A stretch of DNA of 64,000 nt from Methanoregula sp. (lineage in GTDB: Archaea; Halobacteriota; Methanomicrobia; Methanomicrobiales; Methanospirillaceae): assembly GCA_003141335.1 (NCBI GenBank), contig PLLR01000022.1:13244-77243 (forward strand), written 5' to 3'. The notes under the pieces are model-generated. The model saw only the letters and a list, made by a program, of their open reading frames with translations, ran no database searches and had not been told where the DNA came from. Position numbers and translations under genes: made by a program. Shown here piece after piece: positions 3,238 through 58,051 of this stretch (positions are counted from its first letter, which is position 1; the number at the start of each line of letters is the position of its first letter).

Positions 3238-3244
3238 TTTGTCC

Positions 3245-4693
3245 TTACACCTCCCGGTTTTTGAGCGCCTCGGTGAGTATACGGTTCAGCTCGCCGGGAT
3301 CTGCTTTGCCCCGTGTCTTTTTCATAACCTGTCCCATGAGGAAGTTGATCGCCCCGCTCTTCCCATTCCGGTAATCCTCGAGTGCTGTTGGATGTTGTGA
3401 TATTGCTTCCTCAACCGCTGCAGTCAGAAATCCTGTGTCCCCCGCTGTTTTGGCAAGGTTCAGGCGCACTACAATGGCAGCCGGCGTCTCGCAGGGCTGG
3501 GGGTTCAGGCGCTGGTCAAGCATGACCCGCAGCACGTCAATCCCGCTTTTGTCAGTGATAGTATCCTGCCGGAGAAGATTCATGAGTTCGGTGACACCGG
3601 CTGCATCCACCGCATCAATAGTCATATCCCGGTAGTTCAGCTCACCGATGAGCGTATCGGCAATCCACGTGGCGGCAAGGGCTGAGAGCCCTTTTGGATC
3701 AGGGGCGACAACCTTTTCATAAAAGTTTGCCAGCCGGAGTTCACCGGTCAGGGTCCGGGCATGGTTGAGTGAGCACCCGTATTGTACGATGAACCGCTCC
3801 CGCCGTGCATCCGGGAGTTCGGGGAGAACAATCCCATCAACCCATGACTGCACGTGAAGCGGGCGCAGGTCAGGTTCAGGGAAATAGCGGTAGTCGTGCT
3901 CCTGCTCTTTGGAACGGGAGGACTGGGTGCTTCCGCTCGCCTCAAGAAAGTGCCGGGTCTCCCGGTCAACCTTCTGCCCACGGCGGATCAGGCTCTTCTG
4001 CCGGGTGATCTCAAACGTCAGGGCTTTTTCCACCCCTTTGTACGAAGAGATATTCTTGACTTCCACACGTTCACTTCCCCGGATTGAGATATTGGCGTCA
4101 ACCCGCAGCGATCCTTCCTTTTCAGAATCAAAGACGCTGAGATACTCCAGCGTGGCGCGGAGTTTGTTCAAAAACTTCCGGGCCTCCTTGGGAGAGCGCA
4201 TATCCGGCTCGCTCACAATCTCGATGAGCGGGATGCCGGCACGGTTGTAATCGACCAGCGAGTACTTGCCCCGCTCGGTGTTGCCCATATGCACGAGCCT
4301 GCCCGGGTCCTCCTCGACATGGATACGGGTCAGCCGGATACGTTTCTCCCCTCCTTCGTCCCCTTCTATCTCGATGTACCCGCCTTCTGCCAACGGTTTG
4401 TCGTACTGGGTGATCTGGTACGCCTTGTCAAGGTCAGGATAGAAGTAGTTCTTCCGCGAGAACTCCGATTCGTGGAGTACGGTGCAGTTCAACGCCTTTG
4501 CTACCCGCATCGCATATTCGATCGATCGTTTGTTGAGCACCGGCATCGCACCGGGCAACCCGAGACAGACCGGGCAGACATGCGTATTGGGACCGTCACT
4601 GCGGTAATCGGTTGAGCACCCGCAGAAGAGTTTGCTCTTCGTATCGAGCTGGCAGTGCACTTCAAGGCCGATAATGACCTGGTTTTCGGTCAT
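3245..4693 (-). CDS. gatB: Asp-tRNA(Asn)/Glu-tRNA(Gln) amidotransferase subunit B
   Basis: IGLEVHCQLDTKSKLFCGCS, VCPVCLGLPGAMPVLN, DYRYFPEPDL. Confidence 0.96.
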   Translation of the reverse strand: MTENQVIIGLEVHCQLDTKSKLFCGCSTDYRSDGPNTHVCPVCLGLPGAMPVLNKRSIEYAMRVAKALNCTVLHESEFSRKNYFYPDLDKAYQITQYDKPLAEGGYIEIEGDEGGEKRIRLTRIHVEEDPGRLVHMGNTERGKYSLVDYNRAGIPLIEIVSEPDMRSPKEARKFLNKLRATLEYLSVFDSEKEGSLRVDANISIRGSERVEVKNISSYKGVEKALTFEITRQKSLIRRGQKVDRETRHFLEASGSTQSSRSKEQEHDYRYFPEPDLRPLHVQSWVDGIVLPELPDARRERFIVQYGCSLNHARTLTGELRLANFYEKVVAPDPKGLSALAATWIADTLIGELNYRDMTIDAVDAAGVTELMNLLRQDTITDKSGIDVLRVMLDQRLNPQPCETPAAIVVRLNLAKTAGDTGFLTAAVEEAISQHPTALEDYRNGKSGAINFLMGQVMKKTRGKADPGELNRILTEALKNREV

Positions 4694-4694
4694 T

Positions 4695-5996
4695 TCAGGT
4701 CACCTCCTGTTCGTAGGCATATGCGACATCGATTACGCGCTCATCTTCAAACGGCCTGCCCATGATCTGGAGCCCGATGGGCATGCCCTCAACCTTCCCG
4801 CAGGGGACTGAAATAGCGGGAATACCGGCAAGGTTGACCGGGACCGTGAGGATGTCGGAGAGATACATGGACAGCGGGTCACTCTTCTCCCCCAGTTTAA
4901 AGGCAACCGTGGGCATCGTGGGTCCTGCAATCACATCCACTTCAGAAAAGATGCGGGCAAAGTCCCGTTTCACGTTCTCACGGGCGACCTGTGCCTTTGC
5001 ATAGTACTTCCCGTAATATCCCGACGAGAGTGCAAACGTCCCGAGCATGATGCGGCGGCGGACTTCGGTGCCAAACCCGGCCCTGCGCACTTCCCGGTAC
5101 GCATCATGCCAGGACTTCTTTGTGTCAGCCGCCGGGCCATACCGCACGCCGTCAAACCGTGCAAGGTTGGAGCTTGCCTCGCACGTGCAGGTGACGTAGT
5201 ATGCGGCGAGCGCGTACTCCATGGAAGGGATGCTGCACGGCACGGTAGTCGCACCGAGTTCTTCAAGCCTGCCAATGGCGCTATTCACCACGGTGGCAAC
5301 CTTCGGGTCAACACCGGCCCCAAAATATTCCCCCGGGATGCCAACCTTTAACCCTTTGATATCAGCCCGGGGTGTGTGGGTATAGGGTTTGTTATAGGAA
5401 GTGGAGTCGCGGCGATCATAGCCGGCAATGACTCCCATGAGAGTCGAGACATCGGTGACGGTACGCCCCATGGGCCCGATCTGTTCGAGCGAGTTTGCGT
5501 ACGCGATCAGCCCGTAGCGTGAGACCCTGCCATACGTTGGTTTTAAGCCTACAATGCCGCAGAATGCCGCAGGACAGCGGATGGATCCACCGGTATCCGT
5601 GCCAAGTGCCATCCGCACCATACCTCCTGCGATGGCAGCGGCACTGCCGCCGGATGATCCGCCCGGCACCCGACTGGTATCACAGGGATTGAGCGTGGGG
5701 CCAAACGCGGAGTTCTCGGTGGTGGTTCCCATACCGAACTCGTCCATGTTCGTCTTTCCCACAATTGCCGCTCCCGACTGCATGAGGAGCTCAACAACAT
5801 GAGCATTGTAGGGCGGGATGTAGCCCTTGAGGATCTTTGAGGCACAGGTTGTCTCGATCCCTTTGGTGGAGATATTATCTTTCACGGCAACGGCAACACC
5901 GGTAAGCTTCCCTGGACCGTACGTGACTTTTTTGCAGGTGGTGAGGAAGGCGTTGTACCGGTCATCCGGTTCAAAGCAAATCTCGTACCCTGCCAC
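4695..5996 (-). CDS. gatA: Asp-tRNA(Asn)/Glu-tRNA(Gln) amidotransferase subunit A
   Basis: Amidase signature GGSSGGSAAAIAGGMVRMALGTDTGGSIRCPAAFCGIVGLKPTYGRVSRYG. Confidence 0.96.
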   Translation of the reverse strand: MAGYEICFEPDDRYNAFLTTCKKVTYGPGKLTGVAVAVKDNISTKGIETTCASKILKGYIPPYNAHVVELLMQSGAAIVGKTNMDEFGMGTTTENSAFGPTLNPCDTSRVPGGSSGGSAAAIAGGMVRMALGTDTGGSIRCPAAFCGIVGLKPTYGRVSRYGLIAYANSLEQIGPMGRTVTDVSTLMGVIAGYDRRDSTSYNKPYTHTPRADIKGLKVGIPGEYFGAGVDPKVATVVNSAIGRLEELGATTVPCSIPSMEYALAAYYVTCTCEASSNLARFDGVRYGPAADTKKSWHDAYREVRRAGFGTEVRRRIMLGTFALSSGYYGKYYAKAQVARENVKRDFARIFSEVDVIAGPTMPTVAFKLGEKSDPLSMYLSDILTVPVNLAGIPAISVPCGKVEGMPIGLQIMGRPFEDERVIDVAYAYEQEVT

Positions 5997-6265
5997 TACA
6001 TCACCCGTGGCGCCTTGATAAATCCGTCTTCCTGTGCAGCAGCGTTCCGCAACACATCCTCCTGCGAAAGTGAGGGTTCAACCACGTCCTCGCGCAACAC
6101 GTTGCAGAGATCTCGGGTAAATGCCTGCTCACCCCTGACCTGGTCAAGCGTATCAAAGTATTCAAGGATTGCATTGAACTGGTGAGTAAAGGTTCCCAGT
6201 TCACCGGTATTGATGCCGACGTCGGCAAGTTCTGCGATATGGTTAACTTCGTGTTCAGTGACCAT
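5996..6265 (-). CDS. gatC: Asp-tRNA(Asn)/Glu-tRNA(Gln) amidotransferase subunit C
   Basis: VNHIAELADVGI...F..QFNAILEYFDTLDQV; immediately upstream of gatA. Confidence 0.92.
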   Translation of the reverse strand: MVTEHEVNHIAELADVGINTGELGTFTHQFNAILEYFDTLDQVRGEQAFTRDLCNVLREDVVEPSLSQEDVLRNAAAQEDGFIKAPRVM

Positions 6266-7259
6266 GTTCCACCCTGCTGATCTGGTCTATGTAATCTTGT
6301 ATGGACGATTTATAACCATTTTTTCGGGCAAGCTTCTGCAGCACCTTCCAGACCCCGCTCCCGTACTGCATCGCTTTCTTCTCGTACCATGCGAATTCCG
6401 GCGGAATGTGGCGTTCTGCAACCTTCCTGAGCGGGATCTTGCGGTGTCCTCCCTGTACCTTCTCCTGAGCAGGAATCGCGCGTGCAGCGCGCACTACCCG
6501 CACGTCCATATAGGGCATGGACAGGTACGTGTCATGGAGTGCGGCCACAGCCTGGTCACGGTCTGCCTGCTCTTCGAGCCCGAGAAAATCATGCTCGAGA
6601 TCGGCAGCGAGCGTTGGTGTTTCAAGATAGCGGGAGTATCCCCCGAAGAGTTCGTCTGCCCCCTGCCCGGTAATGATACGCTGATAGCCGTGCTCTCCTG
6701 CCCATCGGACGACAAAGTACAGGGTCAGCGCGATGCTCACATTGACCGGATCTTTTAAGGGGATCGCCTCGATGACCATGGGAAGTGCAGATGCAATCTC
6801 TTTTGGCGTGATCGTGACATACGTGCAGGAGAGGTTGAGGGTATCAGCTGCATGACGTGCCTGCCGGAGATCGTGGGACTCTTCAAGACCCACTGCCACG
6901 CACTCGCGCCGGGCCAGATGTGCGACGAGCGTTGAGTCCACGCCGCCCGAGAGCGCAGTTACTCCCTCGTCGCCGCGCAACCGCACTGCGGTAATAATCG
7001 CCTCTTCAAGCGGCAGATCCGGAACGGTGGGAGTGATCTTCCCTTTGATCTCGCCATCGCATATGAGGGTCCCTTTCGGGCAGTTGCCCGGCATGATCCC
7101 GAAATGATCCCGGGCCCTGCACCCGCTCCCGGCCAGGAAGAATTCCCCCCCGAACCTGAGGATCTCTTTCGGGCGGTCTTTTACGATCTCCCCGATCTCC
7201 CGGACCGGGAGCCTCTGCCCGTCGACTTCAACCCATCCGGAAAGTTTTAGCGAACTCAT
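6255..7259 (-). CDS. Asparagine synthase-like protein (synthetase domain, no N-terminal glutaminase domain)
   Basis: PP-loop ALSGGVDSTLVAHLA and GQGADELFGGYSRY; starts MSSLKL with no N-terminal catalytic Cys2. Confidence 0.8.
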   Translation of the reverse strand: MSSLKLSGWVEVDGQRLPVREIGEIVKDRPKEILRFGGEFFLAGSGCRARDHFGIMPGNCPKGTLICDGEIKGKITPTVPDLPLEEAIITAVRLRGDEGVTALSGGVDSTLVAHLARRECVAVGLEESHDLRQARHAADTLNLSCTYVTITPKEIASALPMVIEAIPLKDPVNVSIALTLYFVVRWAGEHGYQRIITGQGADELFGGYSRYLETPTLAADLEHDFLGLEEQADRDQAVAALHDTYLSMPYMDVRVVRAARAIPAQEKVQGGHRKIPLRKVAERHIPPEFAWYEKKAMQYGSGVWKVLQKLARKNGYKSSIQDYIDQISRVEHGH

Positions 7260-7593
7260 TTAGTAACTCATCATTCTTTGATTGTCCACAATCTATACCC
7301 CTCGCGTTCTCATTAAACGTATCTTTTCGGAAAATACTAACGATTAACGGATCAGGCATAGGTGGAGGTGCAACGTTTTGTACTGGTGATCAGGGTTTCT
7401 TTGAAGATAAAGGGGGATTCTTTTTCCATGAGTCAGGTAACAAGACATGATTTTTTTTGTAAGGACAGGAAAAGAGATACAATCTTTTTTTTTAGTTGTA
7501 CGGTTAATAGTTCAAAGCGTTAGGATATCTTATGCCCGGCCAAATTCACCGGACTTAATATATCAGACCGCGATTTTAGTACCAGGTACCTGT

Positions 7594-32537: not shown

Positions 32538-32843
32538 ATGAACAGGATGCGTGGTGGTTTTTTCATGGTTGTTGAACACGTAAACGGGAAAAAGAAAGGT
32601 ACCGTCATGCTGTATGCCCTGAGCACCTGCGGGTGGTGTGCGAGGACAAAAGAATTGTTACGGACACTTGGGGTAGACTTTGACTATACCTATGTGGATC
32701 TCCTCGAGGGAAAAGAGCAGGATGATGTGATGAATGAGGTCGAGAGATGGAACCCGAAGGGCTCATTCCCGACGCTGGTCATCAAAGATAAGACAGGTAT
32801 TATCGGATTCCGTGAAGATGAAATCCGGGAGGCACTGAAATAA
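32538..32843 (+). CDS. Glutaredoxin-like protein
   Basis: [36 protein letters not shown] (CxxC). Confidence 0.88.
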
Positions 32844-33358
32844 TGAATCCGGCAGATATTGAGGAAAAAGAGATCGACCGGATATATGTAATCATTAAAA
32901 AGGAGGCAGAAGGCGGGGGTTACTTCCTGAACCCCGACGTTGACTTCACGAAAAATCTCGTACGGGGACTGCTGAAAAATGAGCAGCGCTACGGGTATCG
33001 TGCCTGCCCCTGCCGTCTCGCCGCGGGAAATAAGGATGAAGACCTTGATATTATCTGCCCCTGCAATTACCGGGATCCCGATCTCGATGATTTTGGCGCT
33101 TGCTACTGTGCTCTCTATGTCAGCGGAGCGATCGCCGGCGGCAAAACGCAGGAAGCACCGGTTCCTGAACGACGGCCACCACGATCCGGGCGTGGTAAAA
33201 AGAAGGTGGTGCAGACCATCCCCGTTGCACCTGCACTATCCCTGTCACTCCCGGTATGGCGATGTACGGTCTGCGGGTATCTCTGCGCCCGCGAACAGCC
33301 ACCGGGAATCTGCCCGATCTGCAAAGTGACAAAAGAGCGGTTTGAACGGTTCCTGTAA
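32843..33358 (+). CDS. Ferredoxin:thioredoxin (disulfide) reductase catalytic subunit with C-terminal rubredoxin-like domain
   Basis: [43 protein letters not shown] plus [23 protein letters not shown]. Confidence 0.92.
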
Positions 33359-33931: not shown

Positions 33932-34513
33932 TTATTCAATTATTGAGAGTACACCGGTAGCAAGATCGTAATAGAGGCCATGAACCTGCACTCTCTTCTC
34001 ATCAACTGCTTTTTTCAGCAGGGGATAGGTATGGAGGTGTTCGATCTGGAGTCTCACGTTCTCCTGTTCTATCTGGCGGTACCTCTCCTCCTTTTCGAGC
34101 ACGGTTGTCGGGGGAGTGATCTTTTTATCCACCCGCTCTTTTGCATCACGGGCATTGTTCAGCCAGAGCGGTATGTAAGAATCGGTGCTTTCCTTATCGA
34201 GTGCCCGGATCGCACCGCAGTTTGAATGCCCGCAGATGACCACGTCCTGAACCTTGAGGTGCACAACAGCGTATTCAAGTACGGTTGCAAAGTTCCAGTC
34301 GTGGATTGGTACGATATTCCCGATATTTCTCTGGATGAACAGTTCCCCCGCTTTTGCCTGGGTGATATGCCCTGTCTGGAGTCGTGAGTCTGAGCACCCT
34401 ATCCAGAGCACCGTCGGGTGCTGACTGGATGCCAGTTCGCGGTAGTAGTCGATATTCGGGGTGAAATCAGATTCTCTGAACTTATAATTTCCCAGCAATA
34501 ATTTGTCGATCAT
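33932..34513 (-). CDS. Beta-class carbonic anhydrase
   Basis: VLWIGCSDSRLQTGHI, DVVICGHSNCGAIRAL. Confidence 0.93.
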   Translation of the reverse strand: MIDKLLLGNYKFRESDFTPNIDYYRELASSQHPTVLWIGCSDSRLQTGHITQAKAGELFIQRNIGNIVPIHDWNFATVLEYAVVHLKVQDVVICGHSNCGAIRALDKESTDSYIPLWLNNARDAKERVDKKITPPTTVLEKEERYRQIEQENVRLQIEHLHTYPLLKKAVDEKRVQVHGLYYDLATGVLSIIE

Positions 34514-34954: not shown

Positions 34955-35614
34955 TTGTGGAGGTGCTGTATACCGATCATTGCTTCTTATGCTGACCCGG
35001 AACCGTTCAGCGAGGACCAGACCCTTCTTACCCTTTATACACTTGCAGGAGAGGAGAGCGGAGGTTTTGTCACATTCCGCCCTCATTTTTTCATTCAGAT
35101 TGGTAAAGCCTTGTTTTCTCAGGGTATCATTGCCTCACCGGTTCAGATTATCGGTGCTGTGGATGTACGGGAGCTTACCTCTGCTGAACTCGCTCGTGCC
35201 GAACGGGAGCTCTGGACCCATTACCATCAGCAGACCGCTGATCGGGTCAATGACCGGCTCTTTGCAGCCTTTGCTGGCATCAAACTGATTGGGGTGGCAC
35301 GGTGCTCACGCCATCCGGACGGTCTTGAAGTCGACGCTGTCTATGTTCTGGATGAATACCGGCGCCATGGATTTGCCCGTTCGGTTATGATCCTTCTCAT
35401 CGAGGAGTGCGGCAGGAAGGAGACTCTCTATATGCACTCGAAGATTGAACTGGTGGATTTCTATGGAAGTCTGGGTTTCCTCCCAATGACCGAGAGTGAT
35501 CTGCCAAAAACAATCCGGGACCGGTTCGGGTTCTGCATGGGGAATCTCAAGGGGATAGATGTCTGCCCGATGAAACGTGATCCCACTGCTCTTACTACGG
35601 AACAGAATACCTGA
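34955..35614 (+). CDS. GNAT-family N-acetyltransferase
   Basis: LEVDAVYVLDEYRRHGFARSVMILLIEECGRKETLYMHSKIELVDFYGSLGF. Confidence 0.85.
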   Translation: MWRCCIPIIASYADPEPFSEDQTLLTLYTLAGEESGGFVTFRPHFFIQIGKALFSQGIIASPVQIIGAVDVRELTSAELARAERELWTHYHQQTADRVNDRLFAAFAGIKLIGVARCSRHPDGLEVDAVYVLDEYRRHGFARSVMILLIEECGRKETLYMHSKIELVDFYGSLGFLPMTESDLPKTIRDRFGFCMGNLKGIDVCPMKRDPTALTTEQNT

Positions 35615-35732: not shown

Positions 35733-37676
35733 ATGATTGTTGAACTTTTCGTTCTCGCAATTATAATTCTTTTTGCCGGTACAATCTTTCCCCTCATAGC
35801 TGCATCGTTGGACCGGAGATCCGTACGGACGATCTCGCTCTCCTGTACAATCGTTGCATCCATTCTGCTGGGGAGTCTCTCTCTTATGGTCCTGCTTTCC
35901 GGTGAATCAGTGTTCTTTTCTCTCTACCAATCCCTCCCTGCATTTTCCCTCTCATTTGTTATCGACCGGCTCGCTTCATTTTTCCTGCTCATTATCGCAG
36001 TCGTATCGGCTTGTGTTGCCCTCTACTTCACTGAATACATTGAGCATATTGACGGGCAGTCCCGCAGGAACCTGCTCTGCAGCTGCACCAGTCTCTTCAT
36101 TCTCGCAATGGTGCTTGTCGTAGCCTCGGCAAACACGCTCTCATTTTTCCTGTTCTGGGAACTGATGGCTGCGAGTTCATTTTTCCTCGTCATGTACGAA
36201 TATTCGCAGTACGACACAAGAAAAGCCGGTATCTTTTATTTTATCATGACCCAGCTCTCTTCCCTTTTTGTCCTGCTGGGAATCATCGTTCTCTATGTAA
36301 TGACCGGTTCGTTTTCTTTTCTGCCTCTGACAACTGCATCAGCACCCCTTGTCACCGTTGCATTCCTCGCTCTTTTTGTAGGATTCTCCATCAAGGCGGG
36401 AATCATACCGTTCCACAAGTGGCTCCCGTATGCTCACCCGGCAAGTCCATCACCAATATCCGCTCTCATGTCAGGAGTGATGCTCAAGATCGCAGTATAT
36501 GGCCTTGTGCGTTTCCTGTTGGATGTTTTCACTCCGGATCTCTGGTGGGGTGTGCTGATTCTTGCCGCGGGTACTGCATCGGCGGTTCTCGGCATCATCT
36601 ACGCGTTAAAAGAGCATGACGTCAAGGGGATGCTCGCCTATTCGAGCATTGAGAATATCGGCATCATTTTTACTGGTATCGGTCTGTCAGTGATCTTTAC
36701 TGCCAGTAATCTACCCCTGCTCGCAACCCTCAGCCTGCTGGGTGCGCTCTTCCACTCCCTGAACCACGCCATGTTCAAGAGCCTGCTCTTCCTCACTGCA
36801 GGTTCCGTTGTGTCTGCCACCCATACGCGGAATATCGAATACATGGGAGGACTTGCCCCCCGGATGCCGGTTACCTCTGCGCTCTTCTTTGTTGGCGCAG
36901 TCTCGATAGCCGCATTACCCCCCCTGAACGGGTTTGCCAGCGAGTTCCTGATCTTCATCTCGTTCTTCTCCTCCGTTTCTGTTGTGGATCCGCTGTTTAA
37001 AGTGCTCCTTTTTTTCTGCCTTGCCCTGTTTGCCCTGACCAGTGCGCTATCAGCAGCATGCTTTGTCAAGGCGTTCGGATCGATTTTCCTTGCCCTGCCG
37101 CGTTCTCCTGAGAGCGCCGCTGCCCACGAAGTCCCCCGTGCAATGCTGATCGGGCCGGGTATCCTTGCGGCTACCTGCATTCTTTTGGGAGTATGCGCCC
37201 TCCAGATCTTTGCAATCGTTGGTCTTACCGTTCCCCTTCCGGATATGCTGCTTGTCAGCCTGCTGCTTCTTGGCATGGCTGTTCTCACGTATGCGATGTT
37301 GTATTTCATCGCTTCCCGGGAGGTGCGGGTGAGCGAAACATGGGGATGCGGGACGTTCTCCCAGCAGGCATCGGCAGAATACAGTGGTCACGGTTTCTCA
37401 GAACCTCTCGACATCATCTTCTCTGCGATCTACCGCACCCGGACAATAAATGAACGGACGTTCTTTGATCAAAAGAACTGCATCTTCAAGGGGGGTACCG
37501 GAGAGATACGTCTCTTAAAGGTATTTGAGGAATACCTCTACCGCCCCATAGCGCAGCAGTCCCTGAGTGTAGCTAAAGTTGTATCACGCTTCCAGAACGG
37601 GTGCCTTGACACCTATCTCCTCTATGTCTTTGTCACGGTCATTGCCCTGATCATTTTCCTCGGGTGGTTTGCATGA
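35733..37676 (+). CDS. NuoL/HyfB-type antiporter-like membrane subunit of a group-4-hydrogenase-related complex
   Basis: Many TM segments; LFWELMAASSFFLVMYE and GFSIKAGIIPFHKWLPYAHPASPSPISALMSG keep the TM5 Glu and TM7 Lys regions. Confidence 0.9.
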   Translation: MIVELFVLAIIILFAGTIFPLIAASLDRRSVRTISLSCTIVASILLGSLSLMVLLSGESVFFSLYQSLPAFSLSFVIDRLASFFLLIIAVVSACVALYFTEYIEHIDGQSRRNLLCSCTSLFILAMVLVVASANTLSFFLFWELMAASSFFLVMYEYSQYDTRKAGIFYFIMTQLSSLFVLLGIIVLYVMTGSFSFLPLTTASAPLVTVAFLALFVGFSIKAGIIPFHKWLPYAHPASPSPISALMSGVMLKIAVYGLVRFLLDVFTPDLWWGVLILAAGTASAVLGIIYALKEHDVKGMLAYSSIENIGIIFTGIGLSVIFTASNLPLLATLSLLGALFHSLNHAMFKSLLFLTAGSVVSATHTRNIEYMGGLAPRMPVTSALFFVGAVSIAALPPLNGFASEFLIFISFFSSVSVVDPLFKVLLFFCLALFALTSALSAACFVKAFGSIFLALPRSPESAAAHEVPRAMLIGPGILAATCILLGVCALQIFAIVGLTVPLPDMLLVSLLLLGMAVLTYAMLYFIASREVRVSETWGCGTFSQQASAEYSGHGFSEPLDIIFSAIYRTRTINERTFFDQKNCIFKGGTGEIRLLKVFEEYLYRPIAQQSLSVAKVVSRFQNGCLDTYLLYVFVTVIALIIFLGWFA

Positions 37677-38614
37677 ACTTCGATTTTGTCCTGTACCTTG
37701 TGATCAATACGCTTGTTGTCATTGCAATTTCACCCCTCTTTGTCAGCCTGATAAAAAAAGTCAAAGCCGGGACACAGGGACGGCAGGGTCCATCAGTCTT
37801 CCAGACATACTTTACGCTGATAAAACTGTTAAAAAAAGAGGTCATCTACTCTCCTAACTCCTCGCGGATCATGCGGGTCACTCCCCTTGTCACGATGGCA
37901 GCTATCCTTGTTGCCGCTCTCTTTGTCCCGCTGGTCTTTGTACCCGAACCCATCGGGGGTATCGGCAACATCATCCTCTTTCTGTACCTGCTTGCGCTGG
38001 CCCGGTTTTTTATGGCGCTCGCCGGTCTTGATGCCGGCAGTTCCTTTGGAGGTATGGGCAGTTCGCGGGAGATGAGCATCTCGGCGATCATCGAGCCCAC
38101 GACCATTATCGTTTTTGCTGCGCTTGCATTCGTCTTTAAGACACTCAATATCTTTGACATGTTTGCCCTCACAGCAGCAACCGGATCACCTGCTACCCCG
38201 ACACTGATTCTGATCGGCATCTCGCTGTTTATCATTCTCATAGTAGAGACCTCGCGGATACCGGTCGATAACCCTGAGACACATCTCGAACTGACCATGA
38301 TCCACGAGGGGATGATCCTCGAACAATCCGGCAGGAACTTTGCCCTCATGGAGCTTTCCGCTGCTGTCAAGATGACCGTACTTATGGCGCTTCTCATCAA
38401 CCTGATCGTCCCCTTGGGGCTTACGACTTCCCTCACCTTTGCAGGGATTCTCATCGCTGTGATCGTATTCATGGTGAAAGGTTCGATCCTTGCCGGAATA
38501 ATCGGGCTCTTCGAATCATCAATGGCAAAGAAACGGTTTTTCCAGCTCCCCAGTCTCTTTGCCATGGCGTTCTTCTTCTCAACCCTTGTCATCATCATCG
38601 AGGTGTTCTCATGA
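37664..38614 (+). CDS. NuoH/HyfC-like membrane subunit
   Basis: GRQGPSVFQTYFTLIKLLKKE, ETSRIPVDNPETHLELTMIHEGMILE. Confidence 0.92.
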   Translation: MVCMNFDFVLYLVINTLVVIAISPLFVSLIKKVKAGTQGRQGPSVFQTYFTLIKLLKKEVIYSPNSSRIMRVTPLVTMAAILVAALFVPLVFVPEPIGGIGNIILFLYLLALARFFMALAGLDAGSSFGGMGSSREMSISAIIEPTTIIVFAALAFVFKTLNIFDMFALTAATGSPATPTLILIGISLFIILIVETSRIPVDNPETHLELTMIHEGMILEQSGRNFALMELSAAVKMTVLMALLINLIVPLGLTTSLTFAGILIAVIVFMVKGSILAGIIGLFESSMAKKRFFQLPSLFAMAFFFSTLVIIIEVFS

Positions 38615-39303
38615 TCGAGACGGCAATAGTTGTTGCGATCATCAGAATCCTGTTTGTCTGCATCATCATTACTGCAGCCTACATCATCTCAACACGCAAC
38701 CTGCTCTCCGTGGTGTCAGTCTATGCCCTCCAGAGTCTCACTCTTGTCTGCATCGCCCTTGCGCTCTATTCGCTTGAGGGATCCATCGTTCTTCTGGCGA
38801 TCGCGGTGGTTACGTTTATCAGTAAGGTAATAATCATCCCGTATTTCATCGCAACCATCCAGGAAAAGATCCGGATCAAGCGGGACATCGAGTTCCATTA
38901 CTTAAATCCCACCACATCGTTGCTCATCTCCATGGCACTGATGCTGGTCATCTACATGGCACTCGCAAGAATTGTACAGGGAACACCGGCACGGGAGAAC
39001 CTCTTCTTCTTTGGCGCCGTGCTGGGGATATCCCTGATGCTGATGGGCATGATGGTGACGTTCAGCCGGAAGCGGGCGATCACAAAAGTACTGGGGTTCC
39101 TCTCTATGGAAAACGGGGTGCTCCTCTTTGGTATGTTTGTCACCGAACTCCCGTTCATCATCGAGTTTTTGATCATCATCGACCTTATCATCCTCGTTAT
39201 CCTGACGACCATATTATCTGTCGGTATTGACTCAACACTTGAGGATTACCACAAACGTCTCCACCGCTTCCATCTCCTTGAAGAGTCTGAGGAGGTTTCA
39301 TGA
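38611..39303 (+). CDS. HyfE-like membrane subunit
   Basis: ATGA overlap with the upstream gene; hydrophobic NuoK-like N-terminal half, HyfE-like length (230 aa) and position. Confidence 0.85.
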   Translation: MIETAIVVAIIRILFVCIIITAAYIISTRNLLSVVSVYALQSLTLVCIALALYSLEGSIVLLAIAVVTFISKVIIIPYFIATIQEKIRIKRDIEFHYLNPTTSLLISMALMLVIYMALARIVQGTPARENLFFFGAVLGISLMLMGMMVTFSRKRAITKVLGFLSMENGVLLFGMFVTELPFIIEFLIIIDLIILVILTTILSVGIDSTLEDYHKRLHRFHLLEESEEVS

Positions 39304-40781
39304 TCCTGATCGCATTTGTGCTGGTATCCGTGCTCTCGCTTGTCATCATCGCAGCCACCCGGAGCCACCGGCAGATGAACACCGTCTGTATCACGCAGGC
39401 ACTGATCTTTGCCGCGCTTGCTGCCTATGTCGTTATATTCCAGCAGGTACCGGTTGTTTCGTTTCTTGTCGGCAGCCAGTACTTCTTTATCGATCACCTC
39501 GGTCTTTTTGAGGTGCTCATCGCCACGGTCATTTTTGCCTGTGCTGCGATCTACGCCCGCGGATATGTCGAAGGACTCCTTGAGAGCGGAGAACTGGAGA
39601 AAGGCAGTCTCAAGCTCTTCTATGCGGCATGGGCCCTGCTCCTTCTGGTAATTGTCCTTGCGTTCTTCTCTGATAATCTCGCACTCTTCTGGATCTTTGC
39701 CGAACTGACCACAATCATCTCTGCGATGCTCATCGCCATTCTGGCAGCCCGTGAGAACATCGATGCAGCGATCAAGTATATTTTCGTAGCGTCAGTCTCC
39801 ATGCTCTTTGCCTTTGTCGGGTTCATTTTTCTCTTCGAGATATCACGGGTCAGTCTTGGCGCAGGCACCCTGAACTGGACGGTGCTCATGCAGCATGCCA
39901 CTGCTTTTCCCCCGGGTATGATGATCGCTTCCTTTGTGCTCGTCTTTGTCGGGTTTGCTGCAAAGTCCGGGATCTTCCCGTTCCATACCTGGCTACCGGA
40001 AGCCCATGCCAAAGCCCCGTCGGCAGTTAGTGCCATTCTCTCGGGTGTCCTGTTGAATGTGGGTATCTACGGGATCATCCGCGTGTATGCGATTGTGCGC
40101 CAGACAACAGCCGTTGCTACCATTGCACCGATGCTTTCGGTGTTTGGAATCCTCACGATTAGCATTGCCGCCCTCTCCATGCTTCCCCAGAAAAACTTAA
40201 AAAAACTGGTGGCATTCTCCAGTGTGGAGAATATGGGGATTATGCTTGTCGGTCTTGCCATCTCCACGCCTATTGCGCTGTTCTGGGTGCTCTTCCATAT
40301 CATGGCGCATTCCTTCACAAAGGCATCACTGTTCTTCTCATCAGGCATCCTGCACCGGCAGTACCGGAGCCGGTTCTCGAGTGATGCAGCAGATGAGATA
40401 CGGGATGTATTCCGGCTCCAGCCGCTTGCAGCGTGGGGAATTATTCTCGGCGGTCTTGCGATCATCGGTATGCCCCCGTTTCCCATCTTCTTCTCTGAAT
40501 TCTTCATTCTGATGCAGCTGGGTGCAGTCTCCTTATGGGTGCTTGGCGTGATGCTCATCCTGCTGTTCATTGCTGCCGGGGGACTGGGATACTTTGTGCT
40601 TACGACATTTACGCAGGTATCTGAACCTAAAACATCATCAGATATTGAACCGTACCGGACACCTGCCAGCATGAAGGTCCCCACCATCTTCCTGCTGGTG
40701 CTCCTCCTCGTTGTCGGGATCTTTCTTCCCACAAGTGGCATGGAGTTCCTCAACCAGATTGTAACGGAGCTGAAATTCTGA
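39300..40781 (+). CDS. HyfF/NuoN-like antiporter subunit
   Basis: FWIFAELTTIISAMLIA, GFAAKSGIFPFHTWLPEAHAKAPSAVSAILSGVLLNVGIYG. Confidence 0.92.
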   Translation: MILIAFVLVSVLSLVIIAATRSHRQMNTVCITQALIFAALAAYVVIFQQVPVVSFLVGSQYFFIDHLGLFEVLIATVIFACAAIYARGYVEGLLESGELEKGSLKLFYAAWALLLLVIVLAFFSDNLALFWIFAELTTIISAMLIAILAARENIDAAIKYIFVASVSMLFAFVGFIFLFEISRVSLGAGTLNWTVLMQHATAFPPGMMIASFVLVFVGFAAKSGIFPFHTWLPEAHAKAPSAVSAILSGVLLNVGIYGIIRVYAIVRQTTAVATIAPMLSVFGILTISIAALSMLPQKNLKKLVAFSSVENMGIMLVGLAISTPIALFWVLFHIMAHSFTKASLFFSSGILHRQYRSRFSSDAADEIRDVFRLQPLAAWGIILGGLAIIGMPPFPIFFSEFFILMQLGAVSLWVLGVMLILLFIAAGGLGYFVLTTFTQVSEPKTSSDIEPYRTPASMKVPTIFLLVLLLVVGIFLPTSGMEFLNQIVTELKF

Positions 40782-42361
40782 TGATTGCTGATAAGGATAT
40801 CGGGATCAGGGCGGTACAGGAATTTCTTGGAGATGATGCCCTGCCAGACCGGATCAGTTCCGGATCCAATAATGAACATTACGTGCTTCTCGAAGAGCCG
40901 GAATTCGAAATGGCTGTATCTCATCTTGCTGCAAACAAGTTTGTTCTGATAAGCCTCTTCTGCTGCGAAGGCTTCTTTAAGAATGCTGCGCACACGCTCT
41001 TTTATGTGTTTGAACGGAGGACAAGCATTCTGGTGCTTGTTCGGGGTGTCAACGGACGAGCAACGTCAATAGCCAGCATCTATCCCTCTGCTTCGTGGTT
41101 CGAACGGGAATGCCGTGACGGGTTCGGCGTTGAATTTGAGGGGGCATTCGATACCCGCAGGCTCTTCCTGCACGAGACGTATCCTGATGGTTTCCACCCG
41201 CTCAAAAAAGCGTTCAGGAACGCACCGATCGTCACGAAGGAGACCGTTGACCCTGTTGACGAATACCCGTTCCGGGAAGTGAGTGGTGAGGGGGTGTACC
41301 AGGTACCGGTTGGCCCGGTGCATGCAGGGATTATCGAGCCCGGTCATTTCAGGTTCAGCGTGATTGGAGAGACGATCTTCAATCTTGAGGTTCGGATGTT
41401 TTACAAGCACCGGGGCATCGAGAAGCTTGCGGAGGGCAAATCCCCGCGGGATTGCATCAGGATTGCCGAAGCGGTGAGCGGTGATGAATCGGTGGCAAAT
41501 GCAACTGCATTCTGCATGGCCGTGGAGCATATCTCACAGATACAGGTTCCAGAACGGGCATGGTACCTGCGGACGATCCTCCTTGAGCTGGAACGTATCT
41601 GCTCACACCTCGGGGATCAGGCGGGGATGCTTGTTGATGTAGCGTTCCCGCTGGGTGCCAACCAGTTCTCGGTGCTGCGCGAGGAATGTTTCCGCGAGAG
41701 TGACCGTTTGACCAGCTCAAGATTCCTGCGGGAGATGATCTGCATTGGCGGGCTGAGCCGTGACGTTTCCAGAACACAGCTCGATGAGCTCACCTCATTT
41801 GTACATCAGATGCGGAAACGGTACAAGATCGGGCTGAAGATTGTGCTCTCGACCGCTTCGGTGATAGACCGGTTCGCCCCGACCGGTGTGATCCGCCATG
41901 CACTGCTGCGACCGCTCAATATCACCGGTCCGGCAGCGCGTGCATCTGGCGGGAAGGTTGATGTCCGGCTAAACCACCCGTACGGCATCTATGACCAGTT
42001 TGTTCCAAAGCCGCAACGGCTCCGGGATGGGGATGTACTCTCCCGGTTTACGATCAAAGCATCGGAGATCATAGACTCGCTCGATCTGATCGAACGTCTG
42101 ATCGCAACAATTCCAGAGGGAGATGTCAGATCAGATGCCCCGATCCGCGACGGATACACGCTTGCGCTGATCGAATCTGCACGGGGACAGAATCTCTGCT
42201 GGGTCTGGATCAAGGATGGTGCAATTGAGCGATATAAGGTCCGGACCGCATCGTTCGGTAACTGGTTGGCGATCGAGCATGCGGTGCAGGGCAACATTGT
42301 CCCGGATTTCCCGGTGATCAACAAGAGCCTGAACCTGTCATATGCGGGGACAGACCTGTGA
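40781..42361 (+). CDS. HyfG-like NuoC-NuoD fusion (large subunit homolog) lacking Ni-ligand Cys motifs
   Basis: NuoC part ASWFERECRDGFGVEF; NuoD-like part VRMFYKHRGIEKLAEG...EAVSGDESVANATAFCMAVE; C-terminus FPVINKSLNLSYAGTDL without DPCxxC. Confidence 0.9.
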   Translation: MIADKDIGIRAVQEFLGDDALPDRISSGSNNEHYVLLEEPEFEMAVSHLAANKFVLISLFCCEGFFKNAAHTLFYVFERRTSILVLVRGVNGRATSIASIYPSASWFERECRDGFGVEFEGAFDTRRLFLHETYPDGFHPLKKAFRNAPIVTKETVDPVDEYPFREVSGEGVYQVPVGPVHAGIIEPGHFRFSVIGETIFNLEVRMFYKHRGIEKLAEGKSPRDCIRIAEAVSGDESVANATAFCMAVEHISQIQVPERAWYLRTILLELERICSHLGDQAGMLVDVAFPLGANQFSVLREECFRESDRLTSSRFLREMICIGGLSRDVSRTQLDELTSFVHQMRKRYKIGLKIVLSTASVIDRFAPTGVIRHALLRPLNITGPAARASGGKVDVRLNHPYGIYDQFVPKPQRLRDGDVLSRFTIKASEIIDSLDLIERLIATIPEGDVRSDAPIRDGYTLALIESARGQNLCWVWIKDGAIERYKVRTASFGNWLAIEHAVQGNIVPDFPVINKSLNLSYAGTDL

Positions 42362-42367
42362 GGTGAG

Positions 42368-42892
42368 ATGAGAATGGTGAACGCATTAACCTGCCTGCTG
42401 AAAAAGAAAGTGACCGAAGAGAAGCCTGCGACGGATGAAGAGGTTGAGGTAATAGGGCGCGAGATGAAAACGGCCATCGATGCGGTGTTTGGCCAGAGTC
42501 TTGCGATCCGCGAGCTGGATACCGGCAGCGACAATGCCGCTGAGATCGAGATCAACAATCTCAACAATCCGTTTTACGATGTGGAACGTTTCGGCATCAC
42601 CTTCGTCGCATCACCCCGTCATGCAGATGTGCTGATGGTGACCGGTGCGGTGACGCATAACATGGCGATCGCAGCAAGGAAGACGTACGATGCGATGCCC
42701 TCACCTAAATTCGTGGTTGCGGTTGGCGATGATGCCTGTGATGGCGGGATCTTTTCGGGAACCTACGCGGTGCTCGGTGGAGCGGATAAGATCTTTCCGG
42801 TCGACCTGAAGATTCCGGGTAATCCTCCGACGCCTACACAGATTCTTACCGGACTTCTTGCCCTGATGAGGATGGCTGGTAAGAAACGGTAG
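42368..42892 (+). CDS. HyfI/NuoB-like small subunit homolog lacking N2-cluster Cys motifs
   Basis: DTGSDNAAEIEINNLNNPFYDVERFGITFV, GDDACDGGIFSGTYAVLGG, IPGNPPTPTQIL align to NuoB/HyfI landmarks. Confidence 0.9.
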   Translation: MRMVNALTCLLKKKVTEEKPATDEEVEVIGREMKTAIDAVFGQSLAIRELDTGSDNAAEIEINNLNNPFYDVERFGITFVASPRHADVLMVTGAVTHNMAIAARKTYDAMPSPKFVVAVGDDACDGGIFSGTYAVLGGADKIFPVDLKIPGNPPTPTQILTGLLALMRMAGKKR

Positions 42893-43082: not shown

Positions 43083-44399
43083 ATGGACGATATCTATCTC
43101 ATTGAGATCCGCCTCTCCCGGACAAAATGGCGGATCAGGGAGACCATTTCTTATATCGGGCGGTTATTCTCCCTTGAACCGTACCTGGAACGGCATCCGC
43201 ATGTCACGTTGTTTGGGCCCCTGACCCTGAATGAAGGTGTCAGCCCCCGTCAGCTCCTGGACGCCATCGGACGGGTGGCAGCCGGGTATGATCCCATCCC
43301 GTTTACCATTGACGGCTGGGAAACGCGGGAGGGAATGCACGGTAGTGTGATTGTATTCCCGGTCAGACCCTCAGAATCCTTAAAAAAACTCACATCTTCG
43401 ATCGCAGATGTACTGTCTCCCCTCGTGCACAGCCACAATATATGGGATTCCCAACCTGCCAGCAAATGGTTTCACGTGACGGTGGCAAATCATCTCAATC
43501 CCACCATTGCATTATCAGTTTTTTCCGTGCTCACGGGATACGAGCAGGAAATGCAGGAACAGGGTATGTCATCCCCCGGTATCCTTTCCCTGGTGGCAAG
43601 CCTGATAAAACGTTTGCTCAACCGAGGAAAAGGGCACGTAGTCCGGCCGGTCACCCTGGATGAAACAGGACTCAGAATTACGGTAATGCAGGGGGAAGTA
43701 ATCCTCGCTGAATATGATCTCCTGGAGAAACGGTGGATCACGGGTGATCACCGTCATACCAATAAATCCTGGCAAAAAACACTCGCACTCTTCCGCCAGC
43801 AATCGGGATTTGAACGACTGGATCCCCTTTCATCACATCCTGATGATATCTTCCTGATTGCTGACCTGCATCTCGGCCATGCGAATATCATCCGCTACTG
43901 TTCACGTCCGTTCCTCGTTTCCGATGTCCGGGAAATGGATCATGTACTGATAAAAAACTGGAACTATACAATTTCTCCCGTGAACCGTGTATATTACCTG
44001 GGAGATTTACGGTATGGAAAAGATGCATTGTCCGCCCTGCAGTACAGGAAAAAACTCAAAGGCTGCATCACCTTTATTGAAGGGAATCACGATGATCCTG
44101 AACCGGGGGCAGTTCCCTGTGCAACCCTTGAATACCGGGGTTTTAAGTTCCTGCTGGTTCACGATCCGGCCACTGCCCCGGAAGAATTTGATGGCTGGAT
44201 AATCCATGGTCACCATCACAACAATGATCTCCGCCACTACCCGTTCATCGATTTTGAGCATCGGAGGATTAACGTGAGTGCAGAAGTGATCGGGTACATT
44301 CCGGTAAATCTGATCCATATCTGTACACTCATAAATGAACACATGTCCAGCGGAGACATGACACCCATTCTTCTGAACTATCCCTATGTAGCAGAATGA
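43083..44399 (+). CDS. Fusion protein: 2H phosphoesterase (LigT-like) + calcineurin-like metallophosphoesterase
   Basis: HPHVTLFGPL and WFHVTVANHL (two HxT motifs); DLHLGHANIIRYCSRPF, YLGDLRYG, EGNHDD, LLVHDP, HGHHHN. Confidence 0.85.
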   Translation: MDDIYLIEIRLSRTKWRIRETISYIGRLFSLEPYLERHPHVTLFGPLTLNEGVSPRQLLDAIGRVAAGYDPIPFTIDGWETREGMHGSVIVFPVRPSESLKKLTSSIADVLSPLVHSHNIWDSQPASKWFHVTVANHLNPTIALSVFSVLTGYEQEMQEQGMSSPGILSLVASLIKRLLNRGKGHVVRPVTLDETGLRITVMQGEVILAEYDLLEKRWITGDHRHTNKSWQKTLALFRQQSGFERLDPLSSHPDDIFLIADLHLGHANIIRYCSRPFLVSDVREMDHVLIKNWNYTISPVNRVYYLGDLRYGKDALSALQYRKKLKGCITFIEGNHDDPEPGAVPCATLEYRGFKFLLVHDPATAPEEFDGWIIHGHHHNNDLRHYPFIDFEHRRINVSAEVIGYIPVNLIHICTLINEHMSSGDMTPILLNYPYVAE

Positions 44400-54417: not shown

Positions 54418-55593
54418 TTAATTGGGATAGGTCGCTTTACCCAGTTTGGGCTCAAAGGTAGCGTCTCCTTCCACACGGATTGCATGCGAGAAGAGTGCAA
54501 GCGGGATATCCATCGGGCAGAGTTCCTCGCACTGACCACAGTTGATGCACGAATCTGAGATGTGGGCAAAACGCCGTAGGTGGAACATCGGGTTCGGGGC
54601 GAGTTCTCCTGGCTTGACCATGATGGAGTCCTTCTTTAACGCATCAGCTGCGGTGAAACAGACCGGGCAGTTCTCAATACAGGAGTAGCACTTGATACAC
54701 CGGGAGGTCTCTTTTGCTATTGTCTCCCACATGTTTGAGCCAAGTGCGGTGAAGTCTTTCTTTCTCCACTTTTCACCCAGCTTGAGCATTGCACCCTCGA
54801 CTTTACCCCGGATCTCAAGCCCCTTCGGGTTTGCCGGTTCGGTTGCAAGGATGCCCTTTGCTACTGCACCATCGAGCAGCTTGGCACCCTTGTCACTGCA
54901 TACTTCGACAAATGTTGCCTTCCCTGCCCGTGGTCCGATAACACCCCAGTTCCCGCAGGCGAGATCTGCCTGGCGGGGGACTTTATACTTGCAGCGGCGG
55001 CAGTTGGACCTGCGTCCGTAGCCTGCTTCTTCGAGCTCGTCCATCGAGATGCCTTTGTGCCCGCCTTCGTACTCGATGATGAACTGGCCCTTGTCGATCT
55101 CTTCCTTGTGGACCTTGTCCGGGTCAACCCCGAATTTATCGGCAATCATCCTGCGTGCGCTGACCGGGCTGACCGACCCGCCGCAGTTCACACCGATCAT
55201 GACGATGTTGTCAAGGTTGATCTGCTTGCGCTTGGCAAGCTCAATAAAGCCCATCACGTCGCAACCCTTGACGGTCACCCCTATCTTCTTGGTCTTTGCA
55301 CCGTCAAGATATTTCTTGACAAGTTTTGGCAGCAGGAGTGTACCACAGTGGAGTGACCCTGCGGTATTCTTCAGGTCTGCCGCGTTCGTGATGAGCACCG
55401 GCTGTGCATCATAGAGATCCTTGCCCTTCTGGATGGCAAGAACCGCATCGACCGCCTTTGATTCGAGTGCGTGCTTCCAGAGTGCGGTGACTGCGCCGCC
55501 GAGTTCGGCTCGCTTTGCAATCTCTTCGTCATTGGTCCATGCGTAGAGCATATCGCCCTTTTTAACTGCAGGAGTACCCCCGAATAGTCCCAT
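54418..55593 (-). CDS. fdhB: F420-dependent formate dehydrogenase beta subunit
   Basis: GAVTALWKHALESKAVDAVL, GVNCGGSVSP, ferredoxin motifs CIKCYSCIENCPVC and CINCGQCEELCPMDIPL. Confidence 0.9.
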   Translation of the reverse strand: MGLFGGTPAVKKGDMLYAWTNDEEIAKRAELGGAVTALWKHALESKAVDAVLAIQKGKDLYDAQPVLITNAADLKNTAGSLHCGTLLLPKLVKKYLDGAKTKKIGVTVKGCDVMGFIELAKRKQINLDNIVMIGVNCGGSVSPVSARRMIADKFGVDPDKVHKEEIDKGQFIIEYEGGHKGISMDELEEAGYGRRSNCRRCKYKVPRQADLACGNWGVIGPRAGKATFVEVCSDKGAKLLDGAVAKGILATEPANPKGLEIRGKVEGAMLKLGEKWRKKDFTALGSNMWETIAKETSRCIKCYSCIENCPVCFTAADALKKDSIMVKPGELAPNPMFHLRRFAHISDSCINCGQCEELCPMDIPLALFSHAIRVEGDATFEPKLGKATYPN

Positions 55594-55594
55594 G

Positions 55595-57658
55595 TTACTT
55601 CACCTCCGCAATCTTCTCGATTCTTACAGCACAGGCCTTGTACTCCGGGATACCTGCAACGGGGTCGAGTGCATTGTTAGTGAGCAGGTTTGCTGCGCAT
55701 TCCTTAAAGTGGAACGGCAGGAAGACGACCCCTTTCTTGATATTTTTTGTGACCCGTGCGCCGATCTTGATCTCCCCTCTGCGGGTGATCGCCCTGACCA
55801 TTTCCTTATCCTTGATGGCCAGCGCCGATGCGTCCTCCGGGTTGATCTCAACCCAGCCGGTTGGTGCCTCGCGCTCAAGGCTTTCCGAGCGGCGGGTCAT
55901 CGTGCCGGTGTGCCACTGCCAGATGCAACGCCCGGTGGTCATGATGAGCGGGTAGTCCTTGTCCGGGACTTCCGCCGGGTATTTGAACTCGATGGGCGTT
56001 AAGACGCCCAGGCCGTCCGGGTGGGTAAACTTCTCCTTGTGCAGGATGGGTGTGCCCGGGTGCTCCTTTGTCGGGCAGGGCCAGTGGAGTGCTTCGGGTT
56101 TCTCAAGGCGGGTGTAATCCATGCCGCCATAGGACGGGGTGACCTTTGCAATCTCGTTAAAGATCTCTTCTGCGCTCTTGTACGGGAACTGTTTCTCGTA
56201 TCCCATCGCCTTTCCGAGTTCACAGAAGATCTGCCAGTCCGCTTTTGCCTGTCCTGGCGGGTCCTGTGCCTTTCTCCACTTCTGGACACGGCGCTCGGTG
56301 CTGGTCTGGGTGCCGTCCTTTTCGGCAAAGCATGCCGCCGGGAGAATGACGTGTGCGAGTTGTGCTGTCTCGGTCAGGAAGATGTCCTGCACGACCATGA
56401 ACTCAACGTTCTTTAATCCCTTCTCCACGTGGTGAAGATCCGGGTCGGAGAGCATCGGGTTCTCTCCCATGATATAGACACACTTGACCTTGCCGGGCTC
56501 ATCGGCAAGAACGTTGATTAACTTGGTAACGGTCAGACCGACTTTACCTTCGGCTATGTCGCAGCCCCATGCATCCATCATCTTTTTGCGCATTTCGGGG
56601 ACTATGACTGACTGGTAACCGGAGTACACGTTTGCGAGGGCACCCATGTCGCAGGCGCCCTGCACGTTGTTCTGGCCACGCAGTGCACAGACACCGCCAC
56701 CGCGTTTCCCGAGGTGACCCGTGATCATCTGGAGGTTTGCAACCGATTTGACGTTGTCGACACCAGTGGTGTGCTGGGTGATACCCATGGAGTAGAGGAC
56801 GTTGCTCGATTCCGCTTTTGCGATCCACTCTGCTGTTGTTGCAATATCCTTGGCCGGAATCTTCGTGATCCTGGAGACATTCTCAAGCGAGTACGCATCC
56901 TTCATGACGACTTCCTTGAGTTTCTCGTAATCCTTGGTCCGCTTTGCAATGAACTCCTTGTTCTCCCAGCCATTCTTGATGATATGGTGCATAATACCAT
57001 TCAGGAGCGCAACATCAGTTCCTGAGTCAAATGGCATGTAGAGATCCGCAAGCTTTGCGGTTGGCGTAAACCTTGGATCTGCGCAGATGACTTTTCCACC
57101 ACGCTTCTTTGCGAGCATGATCTGCCGCCCGATCAGCGGGTGCTGCTCCAGGGTGTTGGAACCAAGAACAAAGATGCACTTGGATTCCCCTATATCACCA
57201 ATCGAGTTGGTCATGGCACCGGATCCAAATGCTCCGGCAAGCCCGACCACCGTCGATGCATGGCAGAGCCGGGCACAGTGATCAATGTTGGGCGTCTTTA
57301 AGACAGCACGGGCAAACTTCTGCATCAGGTAGTTCTCTTCGTTGGAAACCCTGGCTGATGAGAGACACGCCATCTCATCTCCTTTATATGACTTGAACTT
57401 GGAGACAATGAGCTTGTAAGCCTCATCCCAGCTGGCCTCGACAAACTTGCCATCCTTCTTGATAAGGGGCGTCGTCAGCCGATCCGGGCTGTTCACAAAT
57501 TCCCATGCATAGTTCCCCTTGGGACAGAGCTTGCCCTCGTTGACGGGGTTGCGGTGCCACGGCGCGACGCCTACAACCTTCTTGTCCTTGACAACAAGGT
57601 TGAAGCCGCAACCGGTTCCACAGTATGGACACGTGGTTGGTACGTACTTGAATTCCAT
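55595..57658 (-). CDS. fdhA: Formate dehydrogenase alpha subunit (molybdopterin, Cys variant)
   Basis: MEFKYVPTTCPYCGTGCGFNLVVKDKKVVGV, KLCPKGNYAWEF, NIDHCARLCHAST, GENPMLSDPD; start at internal ATG. Confidence 0.93.
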   Translation of the reverse strand: MEFKYVPTTCPYCGTGCGFNLVVKDKKVVGVAPWHRNPVNEGKLCPKGNYAWEFVNSPDRLTTPLIKKDGKFVEASWDEAYKLIVSKFKSYKGDEMACLSSARVSNEENYLMQKFARAVLKTPNIDHCARLCHASTVVGLAGAFGSGAMTNSIGDIGESKCIFVLGSNTLEQHPLIGRQIMLAKKRGGKVICADPRFTPTAKLADLYMPFDSGTDVALLNGIMHHIIKNGWENKEFIAKRTKDYEKLKEVVMKDAYSLENVSRITKIPAKDIATTAEWIAKAESSNVLYSMGITQHTTGVDNVKSVANLQMITGHLGKRGGGVCALRGQNNVQGACDMGALANVYSGYQSVIVPEMRKKMMDAWGCDIAEGKVGLTVTKLINVLADEPGKVKCVYIMGENPMLSDPDLHHVEKGLKNVEFMVVQDIFLTETAQLAHVILPAACFAEKDGTQTSTERRVQKWRKAQDPPGQAKADWQIFCELGKAMGYEKQFPYKSAEEIFNEIAKVTPSYGGMDYTRLEKPEALHWPCPTKEHPGTPILHKEKFTHPDGLGVLTPIEFKYPAEVPDKDYPLIMTTGRCIWQWHTGTMTRRSESLEREAPTGWVEINPEDASALAIKDKEMVRAITRRGEIKIGARVTKNIKKGVVFLPFHFKECAANLLTNNALDPVAGIPEYKACAVRIEKIAEVK

Positions 57659-58051
57659 AATAATACCTCCTACAATTGCAAATCGGAACAACCAAGAATA
57701 AATCTTGTGATTTACTGGTGAAAAAATCAATAAATCTTCGAAAGATAAAATTTCAATATATTTTACTCTCTATCAAAATTTACGCTTTTTAGTTATTGTC
57801 ATTCCTGATACACTATTGTCATTTGTCGTAAACGCATGGGTTAAATACTAAATATCTGCCTGAAAACGGTTTTTCCCCCCGAATATATCAGTACTTTTAC
57901 CAAAGAAATGAAACAGGTTCAGGATTTTTACCAGCACGCAACTACCATTGCCCTGACCACCCTGGTTCCTCTATTAATACAATTTTAGGCTTTGTTGAAA
58001 TCCTCTTTTTCTGTGTAATTCGCTTATTCTCTGCGGCAGCCAGGAGGGTGA

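Follow-up and report, generated by a model that had tools for sequence, protein, structure and literature searches.

The closest described relatives of the six-gene operon examined here, which is found at positions 35733-42892 on the forward strand of a 64-kb stretch of Methanoregula sp. DNA (the whole of the DNA analysed, hereafter the window), are the energy-converting hydrogenase-related (Ehr) complexes. That the Ni cysteines are missing was reported in 2009 for the "Pmh" operon of Methanospirillum hungatei (Mhun_1817-1822) and for its homologues in Methanosarcina (PMC2686161), and in 2020 for Ehr from the candidate phyla radiation (CPR) (PMC7304191); a 2016 genome paper named the M. hungatei operon ehrABCDLS and considered it likely to reduce ferredoxin (PMC4704411). 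The window complex shares its subunits with these complexes, and Ni ligands are absent from both. The published Ehr/Pmh description covers the large subunit only, whereas the window complex is also without the cluster ligands of the small subunit. The M. hungatei operon is, we assume, almost certainly an orthologue of the window operon.

As in other Ehr, a Ni-less, group-4-related large subunit is encoded together with antiporter-like and NuoH-like membrane subunits. Four cluster cysteines in the small subunit, HyfI, are a usual Ehr trait that lies outside the published definition; most Ehr in our sample keep them, whereas the window HyfI has none. Group-4 NiFe hydrogenases, such as formate hydrogenlyase (HycE/HycG, 7z0s) and Mbh (6cfw), share membrane subunit types with the window complex and are the closest solved relatives of its soluble subunits, but the window complex lacks their Ni ligands, Fe-S ligands, HyfH and C-terminal tail. 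With respiratory complex I it has NuoB, C/D, H, L and M-type subunits and coupling motifs in common; unlike complex I, it has neither the N2 cluster nor an NADH module. We class the complex as an Fe-S-less variant of Ehr and not as a hydrogenase. The scaffold and the loss of Ni ligands were known before; new here are that all redox centres have gone, that this state is conserved and that the operon shows gene linkage. No open-access report of small-subunit cluster loss was found; the search did not reach paywalled reviews on the complex I superfamily, leaving priority uncertain.

Subunits of the operon and loss of their metal sites

All six open reading frames (ORFs) are intact, and each overlaps or abuts the next. 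Based on Pfam and NCBIfam profiles (antiporter, NADHdh, 30-kDa and 49-kDa, and 20-kDa families), homologues of HyfB-C-E-F-G-I follow one another along the operon, in the tightly packed order that a first-pass annotation of this DNA had given. HyfB (35733..37676, 647 aa) is a NuoL-like antiporter subunit (PF00361, 1.5e-61; NCBIfam NF006418, "hydrogenase membrane subunit", 924 bits against a cut-off of 794), and HyfC (37664..38614, 316 aa) is the NuoH-like heel subunit (PF00146, 6.2e-34). The HyfE-like membrane subunit (38611..39303, 230 aa) had no match in the Pfam profile search and was assigned by position and alignment, its match to NCBIfam NF008556, "hydrogenase 4 membrane subunit", at 1.8e-18 being under the curated cut-off. 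HyfF (39300..40781, 493 aa) is a NuoM-N-like antiporter subunit (PF00361, 1.2e-50; NCBIfam NF006427, 687 bits, cut-off 511). The soluble arm consists of HyfG (40781..42361, 526 aa), a large subunit in which the 30-kDa and 49-kDa parts are fused (PF00346, 5.6e-35; PF00329, 3.2e-16), and the small subunit HyfI (42368..42892, 174 aa; PF01058, 5.6e-26). The closest solved structures are HycE (7z0s_E, 9e-65) and HycG (7z0s_G, 1.9e-30), respectively, of the Escherichia coli formate hydrogenlyase.

The membrane arm retains its coupling motifs, which the first-pass annotation had described as kept in both antiporter-like subunits. The Glu of transmembrane helix 5 could be located in FFLFWELMA at 138-146 of HyfB and in WIFAELTT at 131-138 of HyfF, and alignment showed the helix 7 Lys/HxWLPxAH motifs to be retained in the membrane subunits, HyfB having both the Lys and HKWLPYAH. 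Alignment likewise showed the acidic loop of HyfC, VDNPETHLELTMIHEGMILE, to be kept across the clade; in complex I, a loop of this type is located where the E-channel begins.

In the soluble arm, by contrast with hydrogenases, every metal ligand has been replaced. Alignment of HyfG with E. coli HycE, HyfG and NuoCD placed S233, E236, S520 and G523 at the four Ni-ligand positions, none of them cysteine; the codons S233-E236 (41477..41488) and S520-G523 (42338..42349) mark the sites of the first and second CxxC Ni-ligand pairs of hydrogenases. HyfG ends in ...SLNLSYAGTDL where HycE runs on, and the tail that is cleaved after Ni insertion is missing. Quinone-site residues were not recognised by eye in the alignment with NuoCD. 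The [4Fe-4S] ligand positions of HyfI are likewise devoid of cysteine (0 of 4) and are occupied by D55 and A58 (ligands 1 and 2, 42530..42541), D122 (ligand 3, 42731..42733) and N152 (ligand 4, 42821..42823). Cluster cysteines have not been relocated, as HyfI contains only Cys9 and Cys124 and a motif scan of the six translations found no CxxC. Neither HyfH nor HyfA is encoded next to the operon: HyfG is directly followed by HyfI, where relatives place HyfH, and the sole ORF in the window with a CxxCxxCxxxC motif is the distant FdhB, at approximately 54.4-55.6 kb. The losses of the NiFe and [4Fe-4S] motifs and of an adjacent HyfA/HyfH gene, all claimed in the first-pass annotation, were thus confirmed, and its statement that there is "no visible redox input" is backed by them together with the lack of CxxC. 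Because the ligands sit inside HyfI, an unlinked partner could not rebuild this cluster. For annotation, the consequence is that operons described as hydrogenases likely to reduce ferredoxin (PMC4704411) could not do so with clusters of their own.

Conservation of the complex and its place among Ehr

Among 199 genomes of the order, 36 were found to have an orthologous HyfI, with a clear gap between orthologues (209-379 bits) and other homologues (at most 116 bits), and large subunits of the same clade were found in additional genomes from a sample of the phylum. Where genomes are called Methanoregula-, Methanolacinia-, Methanospirillum- or Methanosarcina-type below, the genus labels were assigned by us, partly from operon descriptions. 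Sequencing error at the key codons is excluded, since about 35 orthologues from the order, and Methanosarcina-type genomes as well, show the same replacements. Every HyfI sequence read from Methanosarcina-type and f16 loci is without cluster ligands, whereas in six loci further removed HyfI retains the full set of four cysteines. Across the 21 archaeal-type rows of the alignment, HyfI has Asp at ligand 1 in 21, Asp at ligand 3 in 20, Asn at ligand 4 in 20 and C124 in 21, and HyfG has Glu at Ni ligand 2 in all 21. At least two further group-4-type loci are present in the window's own genome, and their small subunits keep the cysteines.

All six genes are under purifying selection, with dN/dS values of 0.04-0.13 against five near relatives. 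The structure of HyfI was predicted with a pLDDT (predicted local distance difference test) of 92.8 from an 80-sequence alignment (61.6 from an 11-sequence alignment), and the model matches PSST-type subunits, e.g. 6cfw_J, with a template modelling score of 0.75 over the query.

For phylogenetic placement, a quick tree of 97 rows was built with the ligand columns masked and with Shimodaira-Hasegawa-like approximate likelihood ratio (SH-aLRT) support. The window clade (21 rows, support 100) was nested within 52 Ni-less rows (support 96), so that the complex groups with Ni-less Ehr and not with hydrogenases. The earlier wording, "Ehr-type or a further derivative", fits this result well, the complex lying among Ni-less Ehr with the small-subunit cluster also lost. 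Ni-less rows that have HyfI cysteines read CCCC at the four ligand positions in 46 of 47 cases.

A wider family comparison (80 loci plus the genome loci) suggests a stepwise degeneration, although the order of the stages is itself our reconstruction from sequence. Hydrogenases with Ni and Fe-S ligands would stand at its start, followed by Ehr that are Ni-less yet retain HyfH along with an intact HyfI (e.g. L102-L107 and L122). In a third stage, seen in other Ni-less Ehr such as those of Nitrospira, the ferredoxin core is gone and a Cys-containing HyfI starts with a fused, HyfH-like N-terminal segment (MFRIxKKSLKTGVVT); Cys-less HyfI would be the fourth. The start of the window HyfI, MVNALTCLLKKKVTEEKP, may be the same HyfH stub, a short likeness seen by comparison and without statistics. 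Loss of HyfH is not unique to the Cys-less complexes, since Nitrospira and Rokubacteria types keep the HyfI cysteines; neither HyfH nor an ORF with CxxCxxCxxxC was found near loci of these types.

A second Cys-less group was found in the CPR (Levy-, Davies-, Staskawicz-, Magasanik- and Moranbacteria). Its operons have the gene order I-B-C-E-F-G and are without HyfH, and HyfE was not recognised in L175 and L186. The HyfI ligand positions read T/D-C-D-D or S/T-E-G-D/N, and the Cys after GD(D/G)A is absent from these forms except in L175. The Cys-less state required two changes on the tree, but a single origin was not rejected (approximately unbiased test, p 0.44), and we do not claim that the archaeal and CPR forms lost the cysteines convergently.

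Several loci in this comparison deserve separate mention. The CPR-type order, as seen in L145, L154, L157, L165, L167, L169 and L174 (approximately positions 1-7500), corresponds to the archaeal B-C-E-F-G-I permuted circularly. L174, labelled as Thermoleophilia, groups with the CPR, perhaps through a binning error. L180 (Dehalococcoidales, labelled Chloroflexota) and L185 (Altiarchaeales) carry archaeal-type Cys-less Ehr that group with the Methanosarcina type on the tree, through transfer or misbinning. L181, within the Cys-less clade, is a Methanosarcina sequence; because Methanosarcina is a genus with genetic tools, deletion of the complex is feasible.

Neighbouring genes and candidate functions

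The operon's neighbours had been regarded as unrelated, a view contradicted by recurrent beta-carbonic anhydrase genes and, in several genera, formate genes. In the window, a beta-carbonic anhydrase gene (33932..34513, - strand; PF00484, 5.1e-50) lies approximately 1.2 kb upstream of the operon and is divergent from the GNAT and Ehr genes. Such a gene lies no further than 1.5 kb from the operon in 15 of the 27 Cys-less genomes having a PF00484 gene, in four arrangements: divergent with GNAT between (Methanoregula-type), convergent downstream (Methanolacinia-type) and two Methanospirillum-type forms. Linkage in three of eight lineages would arise by chance with a probability of 2e-7, a rough estimate that assumes eight independent lineages and a copy number. 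The association is recurrent without being universal; no PF00484 gene was found in seven Methanosarcina-type genomes that carry the complex, and the anhydrase was accordingly rejected as an obligatory partner. In G113, a stop interrupts the anhydrase copy next to the operon. In several genera, genes for formate dehydrogenase or a formate transporter also lie close to the operon; in the window, FdhB- and FdhA-like formate dehydrogenase genes, named by sequence resemblance, lie 11.5 kb downstream (54418-57730, - strand).

Because the metal sites have all been lost and yet the operon is kept in many archaea and some bacteria, it may well encode an ion-moving machine run by non-redox means. More precisely, we see about an even chance that this is a functional, ion-translocating Ehr complex that is redox-inert, i.e. 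a redox-free scaffold of group-4 hydrogenase and complex I. Two antiporter subunits, a NuoH-like heel and the large and small soluble subunits would have been retained while the whole internal electron path was removed. H+ and/or Na+ would move via the two antiporter subunits, with the complex acting as a gradient-driven antiporter or as a gated pathway, in principle like Mrp or DAB. The former hydrogenase arm could then serve as a gate that responds to a ligand or to protonation, its state being relayed through the acidic loop of HyfC; ion movement would be gated or driven by a non-redox event in what used to be the active-site cavity. The recurrent linkage to genes for carbonic anhydrase and formate metabolism or transport would point to pH, CO2/bicarbonate or formate homeostasis.

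This reading draws, at the level of sequence, on the ligand loss in both soluble subunits, the absence of CxxC, the shared replacements in orthologues across genera and families, the low dN/dS, the kept membrane motifs, the predicted intact PSST fold, the relatives with HyfH and cysteines, and the Cys-less CPR operon. DAB2 offers a precedent for the redox-free use of a complex-I-like membrane subunit (PMC13144422). If it is right, redox-free NuoL/M-type subunits are common to the window complex and the Mrp antiporters. The latter are without NuoH-, NuoD- and NuoB-like subunits, whereas the window complex keeps HyfC, HyfG and HyfI, all conserved. Their retention is not explained by simple antiport, and this weighs against the proposal, as do the Methanosarcina-type genomes that carry the complex without an anhydrase neighbour and the compatibility of the sequence with a redox cofactor of another kind or an unlinked partner. 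A broader claim, that a widespread complex-I-type lineage in methanogens and CPR has dispensed with redox chemistry and couples ion movement to a non-redox ligand or reaction at the former hydrogenase site through an intact membrane arm, is put forward only tentatively. If true, it would mean that complex I coupling is separable from electron transfer. How complex I electron transfer drives distant proton pumping is a long-standing question, and a natural relative in which the heel, the two soluble subunits and the two antiporters persist in the absence of any redox centre would show which coupling parts need electrons.

The occurrence of formate genes around the operon in several genera, and 11.5 kb away in the window, also raises the possibility that the enzyme is still redox-active: a soluble partner, e.g. 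formate dehydrogenase, would directly reduce an organic cofactor or substrate held in the pocket of HyfG, bypassing any Fe-S relay. In Geobacter, Ehr abundance is higher on formate (PMC7894505), and for other bacteria a complex of formate dehydrogenase and Ehr has been suggested (PMC6349859). We nevertheless consider it unlikely, given that a HyfI cluster is impossible, HyfH is missing, the operon is without a flavin-type subunit, and the Methanosarcina-type and CPR loci have no common formate neighbourhood. The anhydrase linkage invites comparison with DAB2 (DabA-DabB), in which a complex-I-like membrane subunit functions without redox chemistry in CO2 hydration driven by the proton motive force (PMC13144422). 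On that model, the window complex would use a gradient to power inorganic-carbon conversion, in the manner of DAB or of the NDH-1 complexes that take up CO2 in cyanobacteria: its membrane arm would drive the interconversion of CO2 and bicarbonate in one direction, jointly with the neighbouring anhydrase or at the vacated active site. Both systems have such a membrane subunit and an association with carbonic anhydrase, and in G206 even a Cys-containing Ehr operon (L107) is flanked by two PF00484 genes, one on each side at 5-6 kb. DAB, however, has two subunits of which DabA is catalytic; no DabA-type catalytic gene was found in the operon, and the window anhydrase is a separate, ordinary PF00484 gene, often unlinked in relatives. 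With 12 of the 27 genomes lacking a close anhydrase, seven Methanosarcina-type genomes lacking PF00484 altogether, and linkage that may stem from the formate-gene neighbourhood, this seems quite unlikely.

The near-fixed replacements in HyfI could instead mean that the vacated cluster site (D55, D122, N152 and the invariant C124) binds a single metal ion for non-redox chemistry or in a structural role. The archaeal-type rows would suit such a site, but the CPR forms, with their different ligand positions and, except in L175, no Cys after GD(D/G)A, would not, and we regard it as improbable. Decay is harder still to reconcile with the data: one relative, G075 (L033, L061), has a single in-frame TAA in its HyfI match, through assembly error or true decay in one lineage, but the open frames, the dN/dS values and replacements that are near-fixed across families refute it for the clade, and a decaying remnant, pseudogene or sequencing error is extremely improbable.

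Other genes around the operon

No extra conserved operon subunit was found across the mapped loci, where only the GNAT and anhydrase genes recur, neither universally. The GNAT acetyltransferase gene of the window (34955..35614, + strand; PF13673, PF00583) lies upstream of the operon, and homologues were found in this position in more than 10 loci. Further upstream, at 32843-33358 (+), a ferredoxin-thioredoxin reductase catalytic chain is fused to a rubredoxin-like domain, next to glutaredoxin-like genes; this fusion gene is kept upstream of the operon in Methanoregula-type loci. Downstream, the ORF at 43083-44399 (+) combines a 2'-5' RNA ligase-type domain with a calcineurin-like phosphoesterase-type one (weak, below cut-off).

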